Both the position numbers and the translations under genes were made by a program. From Rubrivivax sp. (GTDB taxonomy: Bacteria > Pseudomonadota > Gammaproteobacteria > Burkholderiales > Burkholderiaceae_C), in NCBI GenBank assembly GCA_019635285.1, contig JAHBZS010000003.1, forward strand, positions 124,001 to 188,000: a DNA stretch of 64,000 nt, read 5' to 3'. The notes under the pieces are model-generated. The model was not told the DNA's origin. It saw only the letters and a list, made by a program, of their open reading frames with translations, and made no database searches. Shown here one piece after another: positions 47,162 to 50,285 of this stretch; the stretch's first letter is position 1; every line of letters starts with the position of its first letter.

Positions 47162-47569
47162 ATGCCCCACCTGGTGATGCTCTACACCCCGCAGCTGGAT
47201 GCGCAAGCCGACCTGTCGCGGCTGTGCCGCAAGCTGGCCGACGCGATGCTGTCGGTGCGCGACGAAAACGGCGCGCAGGTCTTCCCCACCGGCGGCACGC
47301 GCGTGCTGGCCTATCCGGCGGCGCACTACGCGGTGGCCGACGGCAGCGGCGACCATGCGTTCATGTACTTCAACGTGCGCATGGCCAAGGGCCGCAGCGC
47401 CGCGGTGCACAAGGCCGTGGGCGACACGCTGGCCGCGGTGGTGCGCGAAGAGCTTGCGCCGCTGCTGGCCGCCCGGCCGGTCGGCCTGACCTTGCAGGTG
47501 GACGAAGGCCACGAAGTCTTCGACGCCAAGCTCGGCAACCTGCACCCCCTTTTCGCGAAGAAGCCATGA
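47162..47569 (+). CDS. hpaF: 5-carboxymethyl-2-hydroxymuconate delta-isomerase
   Basis: HpaF isomerises the diacid formed by HpaE. The 135-residue protein belongs to the tautomerase superfamily and has the essential Pro right after the start Met (MPHLVMLYT). The end segment [20 protein letters not shown] is typical of the CHMI group. It overlaps the hpaH ATG by 4 bp. Confidence 0.93.
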
Positions 47570-48378
47570 CCACCACCCTAGCCCCGCAGACCATCGCCGC
47601 GCTGGCGCGGCAGCTCTACGACGCACGCAAGTCGCGCACGCAACTGCGCCACCTGTCGGCGCAGCACCCGGGCATGACCATCGAGGACGGCTATGCGGTG
47701 CAGCGCGCCTGGGTGGCACTGGAGCTGGCCGACGGCCGTGTCATCAAGGGCCGCAAGATCGGCTTGACCTCGCGCGCGATGCAGCAGTCCAGCCAGATCG
47801 ACGAGCCCGACTTCGCGCCGCTGATGGACGACATGTTCTTCGCCAACGGCGGCGACATCCCCATCAGCCGCTTCATCGCACCGCGCATCGAGGTCGAGCT
47901 GGCCTTCATCCTGGGCAAGCCGCTGAAGGGCCCGGGCGTGACGCTGTTCGACGTGCTGTCGGCCACCGAATGGGTGAGCCCGGCCATCGAGATCATCGAC
48001 GCGCGCATCGAGCAGTTCGACCGCGACACCAAGGCGCCGCGCAAGGTCTTCGACACCATCAGCGACTTCGCCGCCAACGCCGGCATCGTGCTCGGCGGCC
48101 GGCCGGTGCGGCCGCACGATATGGATCTGCGCTGGGTGGGCGCGATGCTGTTCAAGAACGGCGTCATCGAAGAAACGGGCCTGGCCGCCGCGGTGCTCAA
48201 TCACCCGGCCAACGGCGTCGCCTGGCTGGCCAACAAGATCGCGCCCTACGACGAGCAGTTGCATGCCGGCGAAGTGATCCTCGGCGGTTCGTTCACCCGG
48301 CCGACCACCGCTGTGGCCGGCGACACGCTGCATGCCGACTACGGGCCGCTGGGGGCGGTGAGCTTCCGCTTCGTCTGA
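47566..48378 (+). CDS. hpaH: 2-oxo-hepta-3-ene-1,7-dioate hydratase
   Basis: HpaH adds water to the oxo-heptene-dioate intermediate before aldol cleavage. The 270-residue protein has the hydratase/decarboxylase fold: [48 protein letters not shown] (E-x-E metal site) and [20 protein letters not shown]. It is the last recognisable hpa gene here. The aldolase gene hpaI, which usually follows, is absent from the window. Confidence 0.94.
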
Positions 48379-48440
48379 CGGCAGGATTGCTGGCCGCGCG
48401 TTGCCGTCCTTGTACGCTTGCCTGCCAAGGTCTGCGCGGG

Positions 48441-48543
48441 CCGAGGAGGACGGGCAAGCGCATCCGCTCATGTCCCCCGATCGCGCCGTGCACGGCGCGC
48501 TCTCCTCCTTAACTTCCCGGATGCGCTTGCCCGCCATCCTCGG
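48441..48543 (-). repeat. 103-bp palindromic repeat, copy 1 (inverted)
   Basis: This 103-bp element has 26-bp outer inverted arms (CCGAGG... / ...CCTCGG), a second inner hairpin (CGCGCCGT-GC-ACGGCGCG) and two unpaired stretches. In the family orientation (minus strand) it contains TTAAGGAGGAGAG and TCGGGGGACATGAG. It is 85 percent identical (15 differences of 103) to copy 2, which lies 116 bp away in the opposite orientation. Four of the differences are paired changes that keep a base pair. The element is non-coding by this evidence, although short frames run through it. Confidence 0.9.
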
Positions 48544-48558
48544 CAGGCACCTGCCGAG
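48539..48558. repeat. Short palindrome at the edge of copy 1
   Basis: CTCGGCAGG-CA-CCTGCCGAG is a perfect 9-bp inverted repeat. Its left arm shares the CTCGG end of repeat copy 1, so the two structures are mutually exclusive. A similar arrangement is seen before copy 2 (CCTCGGC at 48634-48640 with GCCGAGG at 48659-48665). It may act as a terminator after hpaH, but no T-tract follows. The rest of the 48379-48854 gap shows no gene. Confidence 0.6.
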
Positions 48559-48659
48559 TCTTCGCAGCGACCAGAAACAGCCCGTGCTGCGCCTCGCGGC
48601 AGTGCTCTCAGGAAGGGGTTGTTGTCTTTGCGTCCTCGGCGTGATCTGGCGGTGCCAAG

Positions 48660-48762
48660 CCGAGGCTGGTGGGTGAGCGCATCCGGGAAGTAAAGGAGGA
48701 GAGCGCGCCATTCATGGCGCGGTCGGGGGACATGAGCGGATGCGTTCGCCCACCAGCCTCGG
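48660..48762 (+). repeat. 103-bp palindromic repeat, copy 2
   Basis: This is the same 103-bp element as copy 1, in direct orientation. The 26-bp outer stem is fully paired if two G-U pairs are allowed. The inner hairpin is CGCGCCAT-TC-ATGGCGCG, and the loop carries AAAGGAGGAGAG, a Shine-Dalgarno-like sequence. It lies 92 bp before the fumC start and would be in the fumC leader if transcription begins upstream. No transposase, target-site duplication or REP-associated transposase gene is visible nearby. Confidence 0.9.
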
Positions 48763-48854
48763 CCCCCGCGCGGTCCAAACGCTCGAAAAGCACGCAGGCC
48801 CATCGCTATGATCCAACGCCTATCTCTGGAGCACAGGTCAGGGAGCCGCAGACC

Positions 48855-50285
48855 ATGAAGATGAGAACGGAGACCGACAGCCTCGGCCCGATCGACGTGC
48901 CGGCCGACAAGCTGTGGGGCGCGCAGACGCAGCGCTCGCTGGAATTCTTCAGCATCGGCCGCGACCTGATGCCGCGCGAGATGATCGGCGCCTATGCGGT
49001 CCTGAAGAAGGCCGCGGCCATCGCCAACCACGACGGCGGCCGCCTGGCCGACGAACCCTTCAGGCTGATCGTCGCCGCGTGCGACGAGATCCTGGCCGGC
49101 CGGCACGACGACATGTTCCCGCTGCACGTGTGGATGACCGGCAGCGGCACGCAGTTCAACATGAACGTCAACGAGGTCATCTCCAACCGCTGCTGCCAGC
49201 TGGCCGGCACGCCGCTGGGCAGCCAGACGCCGGTGCACCCGAACGACGACGTCAACATGGCGCAGTCGACCAACGACAACTTCCCGTCGGCCATGTACAT
49301 CGCCACCGCGATGGGCGCCAAGCAGCGGCTGCTGCCCGCGGTGCAGCAACTGCACGACGCGCTGGCGGACAAGGCCGAAGCCTGGCGCGACATCGTCAAG
49401 ATCGGGCGCACGCACCTGCAGGACGCCACGCCGCTGACGCTGGGCCAGGAATGGTCGGGCTACGTGGGGCTGCTGGCCGACGGCCTGGTGCGGATCGAAG
49501 CGGCGCTGCAGGACGTTTACAAGCTGGCGCTGGGCGGCACGGCGGTGGGCACCGGCATCAACTCGGCGCCCGGCTTTGCCGAGGCCGCGGCGGCGCAGAT
49601 CGCGCAGCTCACCGGCCTGCCCTTCGTCACCGCGCCCAACAAGTTCACGGTGCAGGGCAGCCACGACGCGCTGGTGCAGTTCTCGGCGACGCTGCGCACG
49701 CTGGCCGTGTCGCTGTACAAGATCGGCAACGACATCCGCCTGCTGTCGTGCGGCCCGCGCGCCGGCCTGGCCGAGCTGAACCTGCCGGAGAACGAACCGG
49801 GCTCGTCGATCATGCCGGGCAAGGTCAACCCGACGCAGGCTGAGGCGCTGACCATGGTGGCGGTGCAGGTGATGGCCAACGACGTGGCGGTGGCTTTCGG
49901 CGGCGCCGGCGGGCACCTGGAGATGAACGTCTACAAGCCGCTGTTGATCCACAACATCACGCATTCGATCACGCTGCTGACGGACGGCTGCACCAACTTC
50001 CGCAGGTTCCTGGTCGAAGGCACCACGCCCAACCGCAAGAAGATCGCCGAATACGTGGAGCGCTCGCTGATGCTGGTGACCGCGTTGTCGCCGGTCATCG
50101 GCTATGCCAAGGCCTCGCAGATCGCCCACTACGCGACGGACCACGACCTGACGCTGAAGGCCGCGGCGCTGCAGCTCGGCTTTGTCAGCGAAGCCGAATT
50201 CGACCGCATCGTCGACCCGGCCAAGATGGTGCAGCCCTATGTGGCGGCGCCGGCCACGAAGCCCACCCCACCCGCCAAGCGCTGA
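48855..50285 (+). CDS. fumC: Fumarate hydratase, class II
   Basis: FumC interconverts fumarate and malate. The 476-residue protein has [58 protein letters not shown] and the lyase signature [14 protein letters not shown] short Pro/Lys-rich tail ([10 protein letters not shown]) extends the usual C-terminus. I chose the ATG at 48855; the frame is open upstream only because it runs through the palindromic repeat. Confidence 0.97.

Follow-up and report, generated by a model that had tools for sequence, protein, structure and literature searches.

Twin hairpins with a covarying stem and a conserved purine loop form a dispersed repeat family in Burkholderiales and Xanthomonadaceae

The two inverted palindromes located between hpaH and fumC in a 64,000-nucleotide stretch of Rubrivivax sp. 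DNA (the window) constitute one unit of a widespread, dispersed bacterial family of twin hairpins. The pattern of variation among the copies, together with their usual position between or after genes, points to a functional structure more than to mobile DNA in decay, and, judging from sequence comparison, we give about even chances to the reading of the unit as a REP/BIME-like mobile element that is kept as a transcribed mRNA structure with a putative ligand.

Both window palindromes are imperfect and 103 bp long, and the positions, lengths and opposite strands that a first-pass annotation had assigned to them were correct. The unit and its surroundings, including the plus-strand genes hpaH and fumC, are organized as follows:

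47566..48378, plus strand: hpaH, 2-oxo-hept-4-ene-1,7-dioate hydratase (TIGR02312, above cut-off), which precedes the unit
48396..48440: left flank, common to the host-genome copies; its outer end is degenerate and CGGCGCTTTGC-like
48441..48543, minus strand as the functional strand: left hairpin, 85.0 bits with the covariance model
48471-48513: core of the left hairpin, GTTAAGGAGGAG...GGGGGACA, coordinates derived from the core-pattern register
48544..48659: linker between the hairpins, 116 bp, of the longer linker class
48660..48762, plus strand as the functional strand: right hairpin, 91.9 bits with the covariance model
48690-48732: core of the right hairpin, GTAAAGGAGGAG...GGGGGACA
48763..48807: right flank, also common to the host-genome copies; in this unit the outer end is degenerate, and where the flank stops is uncertain
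48783..48812, plus strand: weak promoter-like site, a consensus match only (TCGAAA-18-TATGAT), located between the unit and fumC
48855..50285, plus strand: fumC, class II fumarate hydratase (TIGR00979, above cut-off), which follows the unit

The two copies differ at element positions 7, 11, 15, 16, 33, 51, 53, 56, 63, 86, 88, 93, 94, 96 and 97. Eight of these form four compensating pairs (7/97, 11/93, 16/88 and 51/56), three (15, 86 and 94) exchange a Watson-Crick pair and G.U on the named strand, and three (33, 53 and 63) are unpaired; up to this point the earlier tally of the 15 differences held, and it had omitted position 96, where a pair is broken (T-A to T.C). None of 200 shuffles was as stable as either copy (z -8.96 for the plus copy and -7.23 for the minus copy). 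The reverse strands also folded well (z -9.32 and -9.15), with energies of -61.3 and -63.7, higher than the -73.7 and -68.2 of the named strands. Since both strands fold well, folding alone does not fix the strand, and the polarity was taken from the family. When the covariance model was run on the whole window, just these two copies were retrieved at E values up to 1.

Family-wide structure was analyzed in 326 unique instances, of which 208 were nonredundant; no more than one mismatch was allowed across the two core motifs. As the instances were found by their core, its conservation partly reflects the way in which they were chosen, while the stems played no part in the choice. In each hairpin, the stem extends over about 31 positions and has G.A pairs close to the core; it is followed by an internal loop (GUAAAGGAGGA / GGGGGACA) and by an inner hairpin that varies. 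Positions 2, 3, 6 and 8 near the core are mostly G.A or A.G, in place of which some copies have GCGAA/TTCGC; at positions 9 to 31 all four Watson-Crick types are in use, and pairing falls at 32. By an ungapped measure, the stem ended at 29-34 in 137 of the 208 instances and at 9 in 14, the latter from shifts or loss. Model matches were mostly 88-113 nt long, with short forms of 88-92 bp.

In an alignment of 62 sequences, 93.4% of the cells were paired compared to 59.0% in shuffles, and two-sided change was found in all 25 outer-stem pairs. The stems co-varied as the first-pass annotation had anticipated, with a covariation score of 0.848 vs. 0.192 in shuffled and 0.13-0.14 in slid controls. 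Four of five covariation measures lay beyond 500 shuffles; the fifth, the count of pairs with two-sided change, did not separate the element from its controls (31 of 34 pairs vs. 28.9 in shuffles, with 33 of the 500 as high). The element thus shows the covariation by which a conserved structured RNA is recognized. Further, isolated stem mismatches in the nonredundant set were G.U or U.G in 250 cases and A.C or C.A in 25 (383 and 29 in all copies), and this excess of about 10 to 1 indicates that one strand is the folded one. Within the inner hairpin the corresponding counts were 12 to 9 in an imperfect alignment, and for this reason we make no claim of polarity there. Taken together, the pairing and mismatch values largely supported the initial proposal of a selected structure with a fixed strand.

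The conserved loops of the window copies, GUAAAGGAGGAG / CGGGGGACA, proved nearly fixed across the family, in agreement with the first description. The model gave 148 matches in 87 loci; the exact pattern was present in 131 of them, and the other 17 had nearly the same loop strands. A recurrent exchange converts AAGGAGG + CGGGGGA into AAGGGGG + CGGAGGA, and the loop purine pair in 333 copies was A/G in 308 (a number inflated by the way in which the copies were chosen), G/A in 17, A/A in 5, C/G in 2 and G/G in 1. The 17 G/A copies include orthologues (L060/L061, L071/L083 and L111/L112), as well as L161, which has an odd inner segment. Even so, double changes are more numerous than single A-G changes, of which there were six, and both strands of the loop therefore seem to be in contact. 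The loop also carries AAAGGAGG, which we take to match the 16S anti-Shine-Dalgarno sequence, and GGA motifs that presumably resemble CsrA-type sites. The element may sequester a Shine-Dalgarno sequence, as had been suggested; no start codon was conserved after the loop, where ATG was present in 191 of the 326 instances.

No known Rfam family was recognized: the window gave no match at gathering score, and a permissive search of seven copy-bearing loci returned 11 matches, each of them under its gathering score. A literature search for the core letters only retrieved matches under titles on other subjects. The closest described repeat that we found is the Beta-proteobacterial repeat element (BRE), with which the twin element, compared by description only, may share a family or a more distant relationship. 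In excerpts of the original report (Hot et al. 2011, PMC3110155), BRE is GC-rich, present in many copies (75-91 bp for full-length Bordetella copies), mostly intergenic and sometimes within genes, hosted by Comamonadaceae and Rhodocyclaceae among others, flanked by codirectional or convergent genes (its Table 3), and reported to occur in tandem, its copies separated by few bases or none. Size (short forms of 88-92 bp), copy number and gene orientation are alike in so far as these excerpts describe them; unlike the BRE tandems, the twin hairpin is mostly an inverted pair with a linker of 40-117 bp (54 of 59 neighbours inverted).

REP/BIME sequences tagged with GTAG or CGTC are described, in the part of the review consulted, as intergenic palindromes of 20-40 bp with a terminal tag, arranged as close inverted dimers, flanked by genes that are codirectional or convergent, and proposed to act through RNA (Di Nocera et al. 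2013, PMC3733652). Against that description, the twin element has the same close inverted dimers and the same gene orientations, but its hairpins are roughly three to five times longer, its stem sequence is free and its conserved segment is an internal loop; no GTAG or CGTC terminal tag was conserved in the flanks beyond the stem. REPINs, in which inverted doublets are the replicating unit in the portion of Bertels and Rainey 2011 (PMC3116915) considered here and which are accompanied by a RAYT (Y1_Tnp) transposase gene in the genome, often adjacent, resemble it in their doublets and differ in their much shorter hairpins and in the RAYT association, which was not seen for the twin element. By defining features, the element fits neither the tagged REPs nor the RAYT-linked REPINs.

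Within the genus, 31 of 81 genomes carried the core pattern GTAAAGGAGG-N5..35-GGGGGACA, as did 79 of 299 genomes of the family (50 of 141 genera) and 10 of 300 genomes of the order sample, while the reversed control pattern gave 0, 0 and 1, respectively, among the matches listed. With stricter filters, the covariance model matched 3 of 274 class-sample and 6 of 299 phylum-sample genomes, all in the host family or in one other family (f63). Relatives of the element thus occur in Burkholderiales and Xanthomonadaceae, and the named carriers, drawn from at least 119 stretches, include Rubrivivax, Hydrogenophaga, Rhodoferax, Variovorax, Sulfurisoma, Oxalobacteraceae, Stenotrophomonas, Luteimonas, Lysobacter and Pseudoxanthomonas. 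Titles with Bordetella, Polaromonas, Delftia or Acidovorax were not among the at least 119 matches listed, some of which are from beta-proteobacteria that lack a species name. A plasmid search gave no match to the window unit. Thirteen viral contigs fitted the core pattern, with one convincing model match (L126, 54 bits) and five others at 19-22 bits; phage carriage was discarded. Several copies were found in a record titled Bacillus subtilis SK7B5 (L171, L190, L204, L238 and L255), a title that looks wrong. The copies examined in another genome, G124 (L360-L366), escape the exact pattern because they have AAATAAAGGAGGAG instead of AAGTAAAGGAGGAG; by eye, one unit of that genome (L364/L380) lies between addB- and addA-like genes.

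The arrangement of the hairpins was nearly constant. Neighbouring model matches within 450 bp of each other (n = 59) were ordered (-,+) in 54 cases, (+,-) in four and (-,-) in one, with 20 further single copies and 9 copies near locus ends. The linkers of the 54 (-,+) pairs measured 40-65 bp in 39 pairs, 87-117 bp in 14 and 313 bp in one. Given this order, a transcript entering from either side would contain the antisense hairpin and then the sense hairpin, so that neither a flip of the unit nor a convergent neighbour would change anything for the transcript. The flanks share no conserved motif, a weak GCCCGCGC after the stem being the sole recurrence. In six of seven copies of one genome (G018, L274-L280), a shared palindromic block of another kind was noticed by eye upstream of the hairpin, in the spot where a partner hairpin might be expected.

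The flanking genes of 90 paired units, with script-made gene calls and orthologous loci counted separately, were codirectional in 57, convergent in 31 and divergent in 2 units, compared to 121, 32 and 32 intergenic spaces of these kinds in one set of searched loci, unit-bearing spaces included. Units therefore avoid divergent gene pairs. We scanned 20 of the 57 codirectional units, picked for their long flanking genes, and 9 of them lay between genes of one system, judged from best family hits of which several scored under the curated cut-offs: OppC-OppD type, DppB-DppC type, binding protein-permease (twice), permease-ATPase, binding protein-ATPase, NarK-NarG, RnfG-RnfE and CusB-CusA type. The gene pairs of the other 11, FtsZ-LpxC among them, were not clearly one system. 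Units were also seen by eye between the large and small subunits of RuBisCO, between propionyl-CoA carboxylase subunits, and between a branched-chain binding protein and its permease. Some units are thus located inside predicted operons. Single copies at codirectional genes showed no sense-strand bias (26 sense vs. 21 antisense; 3 vs. 8 in a model-based count), a result that argues against single copies having a simple cis role.

In the host genome (4.9 Mb in 89 contigs, 94.5% complete), 150 candidates were scored with the covariance model and 26 were full-length copies. Their scores ranged from 78 to 98 bits, and lowering the threshold to E 0.01 added no weaker full-length match; the wider search for the family that had been proposed from the window alone was in this way successful both here and in relatives within the Burkholderiales. 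Twenty of the 26 copies form ten inverted pairs of two sequence types, and a contig end is no more than about 250 bp away from five of the remaining six. Some copies are near-identical. DNA searches added fragments, several of them at contig ends; an interior fragment (C78:60201-60357) and a missing partner (C37) reveal that truncated copies exist. The outer flanks of the host copies are inverted repeats of each other, CGGCGCTTTGC...GCAAAGCGCCG, of which the flank end CGGCGCTTTGC is that of the window's sequence type. This recalls MITEs, which are defined by terminal inverted repeats with target duplication; the ends were noticed only in Rubrivivax copies (G000 and G018) and are not general, and no target duplication was seen by eye at the host copies. 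The outer repeat was rejected as the mark of a transposon family: its 19 exact places in the host include some away from known units, and with two mismatches allowed it is too common (332 and 298 occurrences vs. 167 and 164 for the control).

In a relative (G016), 74 bp separate the corresponding flanks, compared to 460 bp in the host, and hence the unit is absent there. At other sites the unit has been retained. Two Hydrogenophaga species (L132 and L198) carry at one place a right hairpin whose inner hairpin is wholly different and still paired, with altered yet paired outer stems; an ungapped comparison gave two-sided change in 14 of 27 pairs, inflated by a base lost per arm, and one of the two species lacks the left partner. 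Eight pcc-type loci, named by eye, retain the unit at one orthologous place, and in their 16 hairpins 0.89-1.00 of stem positions 9-26 are paired in stems of differing sequence. Broken pairs also occur in orthologous copies (L186/L230, L071/L080 and L106/L107).

Between some orthologous loci with collinear flanking genes (L060/L061 vs. L062; L106 vs. L107), the whole unit and its outer arms are inverted, with inverted matches of 253-269 bp at 81-85%. Among 10 cross-species orthologous groups counted by hand, 2 were inverted, 6 direct and 2 unclear. An exchange confined to the inverted cores would break the stems apart, and the ends of the flip must therefore lie outside the hairpins. The unit appears to have flipped in place, although independent re-insertion of a sister unit may alternatively have occurred. 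The contrast with an insertion element drawn in the first-pass annotation consequently stands only in part, the near-identical copies, the empty site and the in-place inversion being mobile-like. In Stenotrophomonas maltophilia EA1 (L267, about 100-680), two pair units stand in tandem in a VNTR-like array, against a single unit at this place in the related records L186 and L230.

The main rival explanation takes up these mobile features: in a purely selfish, REPIN-like element, a trans-acting enzyme would read one strand as single-stranded DNA and the structure would be kept for moving only. Inverted doublets, near-identical copies in one genome, the empty site, inverted orthologues and unbiased singles are all in line with this, and one-strand recognition would also yield more G.T than A.C. 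However, no partner enzyme was found. The Y1 transposase family PF01797 had no match in four copy-rich genomes (G000, G085, G018 and G558; 4 of 12 high-copy genomes, host included), its overall occurrence being 8 of 12 high-copy genomes vs. 3 of 12 without an exact-pattern match, and the element was absent from the examined flanks of 14 out of 14 transposase loci; a RAYT link is thus not supported. Copies at orthologous sites also remain largely intact, and we regard the selfish explanation as unlikely, if less so than those that follow. An autonomous element was likewise rejected, as the wide pairs L128, L129 and L130 enclose ordinary genes whose translations, by eye, include no transposase.

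A small RNA or titration platform with its own promoter, which would bind CsrA/Rsm-type proteins via GGA or the 30S subunit via AAAGGAGG, is improbable. The loop does combine both motifs, with the presumed links to CsrA and the anti-Shine-Dalgarno sequence given above, and, in the excerpts available, the Bordetella BRE, likened to our element by description only, overlaps the sRNAs bprJ1/bprJ2 (PMC3110155). Nevertheless, 39 linkers of up to 70 bp had no shared fold (mean z -0.5) and were mutually unlike, so that a linker hairpin, although some linkers do fold, is not general. The one weak promoter-like site of the window lies downstream of both hairpins, and its TATGAT is also present in the empty site of G016.

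Even less probable is a site that acts on duplex DNA, through a cruciform or the binding of a nucleoid protein or gyrase. The palindrome and its REP-like location would suit such a site, but the two strands are equivalent in a cruciform, from which a 10:1 surplus of G.T over A.C on one of them would not be expected. Hairpin-templated repair without selection (quasi-palindrome correction) also yields two-sided changes, but repair between palindrome arms predicts equal numbers of G.U and A.C and should neither fix loops nor produce a paired loop change, which makes it scarcely credible as the source of the compensation.

We return to the reading of the unit as a transcribed mRNA structure. From the anatomy, covariation, polarity, pairing rule, gene context and inverted orthologues described above, we infer transcription, a factor and an effect on mRNA in the following manner. 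Each hairpin would fold on its own sense strand and, owing to the back-to-back (-,+) arrangement, a transcript of either direction would present the sense hairpin after the antisense one. The sense hairpin most likely acts in mRNA, between operon cistrons or at gene 3' ends, where its structured purine loop would be recognised by a putative RNA-binding factor; decay or read-through past the hairpin would thereby be limited and the expression of the preceding gene set relative to the following one. The unit would have spread through a mobility route and been inverted in place between some relatives. This order is consistent with an mRNA element that works in both directions, between cistrons and at 3' ends, a role comparable to that proposed for REPs in the consulted part of PMC3733652.

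A more specific version, which we put forward tentatively and consider more likely wrong than right, is that of a hitherto undescribed type of direction-indifferent mRNA element: a mobile twin hairpin whose structured sense purine motif would bind a dedicated factor and set the relative expression of neighbouring cistrons, and which could flip in place without loss of function. The purine motif would contain the A.G/G.A pair and may form a two-tier G-quadruplex with the inner hairpin as its cap. Several results weigh against the mRNA reading, namely that recognition of one strand as single-stranded DNA would equally give polarity, the singles without sense bias in either count, the truncated host copies and broken pairs of some orthologous copies, and the 11 of 20 flanking gene pairs that are not clearly one system. 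Our searches found no binding factor for the element.

If the mRNA reading is true, a portable control element, with no Rfam family found for it in our searches, is present in many operons of Burkholderiales and in some of Xanthomonadaceae, and its free stems and fixed loop would offer a strong handle for finding the binding partner. Whether REP-like repeats are selfish, useful or both would also become testable at orthologous sites, which allow position, structure and strand to be compared.

Two further locations were recorded. A copy at L130:4187-4274 (minus) lies, by eye, within a predicted cobB-like gene whose frame stays open, and a second copy is placed between two genes of the same cobalamin cluster. 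Finally, units in L111, L112, L036 and L135 occupy one place beside hpaD-like genes, with hpaE- and hpaD-like neighbours by eye in L111, and these share a pathway cluster with the window unit, which follows hpaH.
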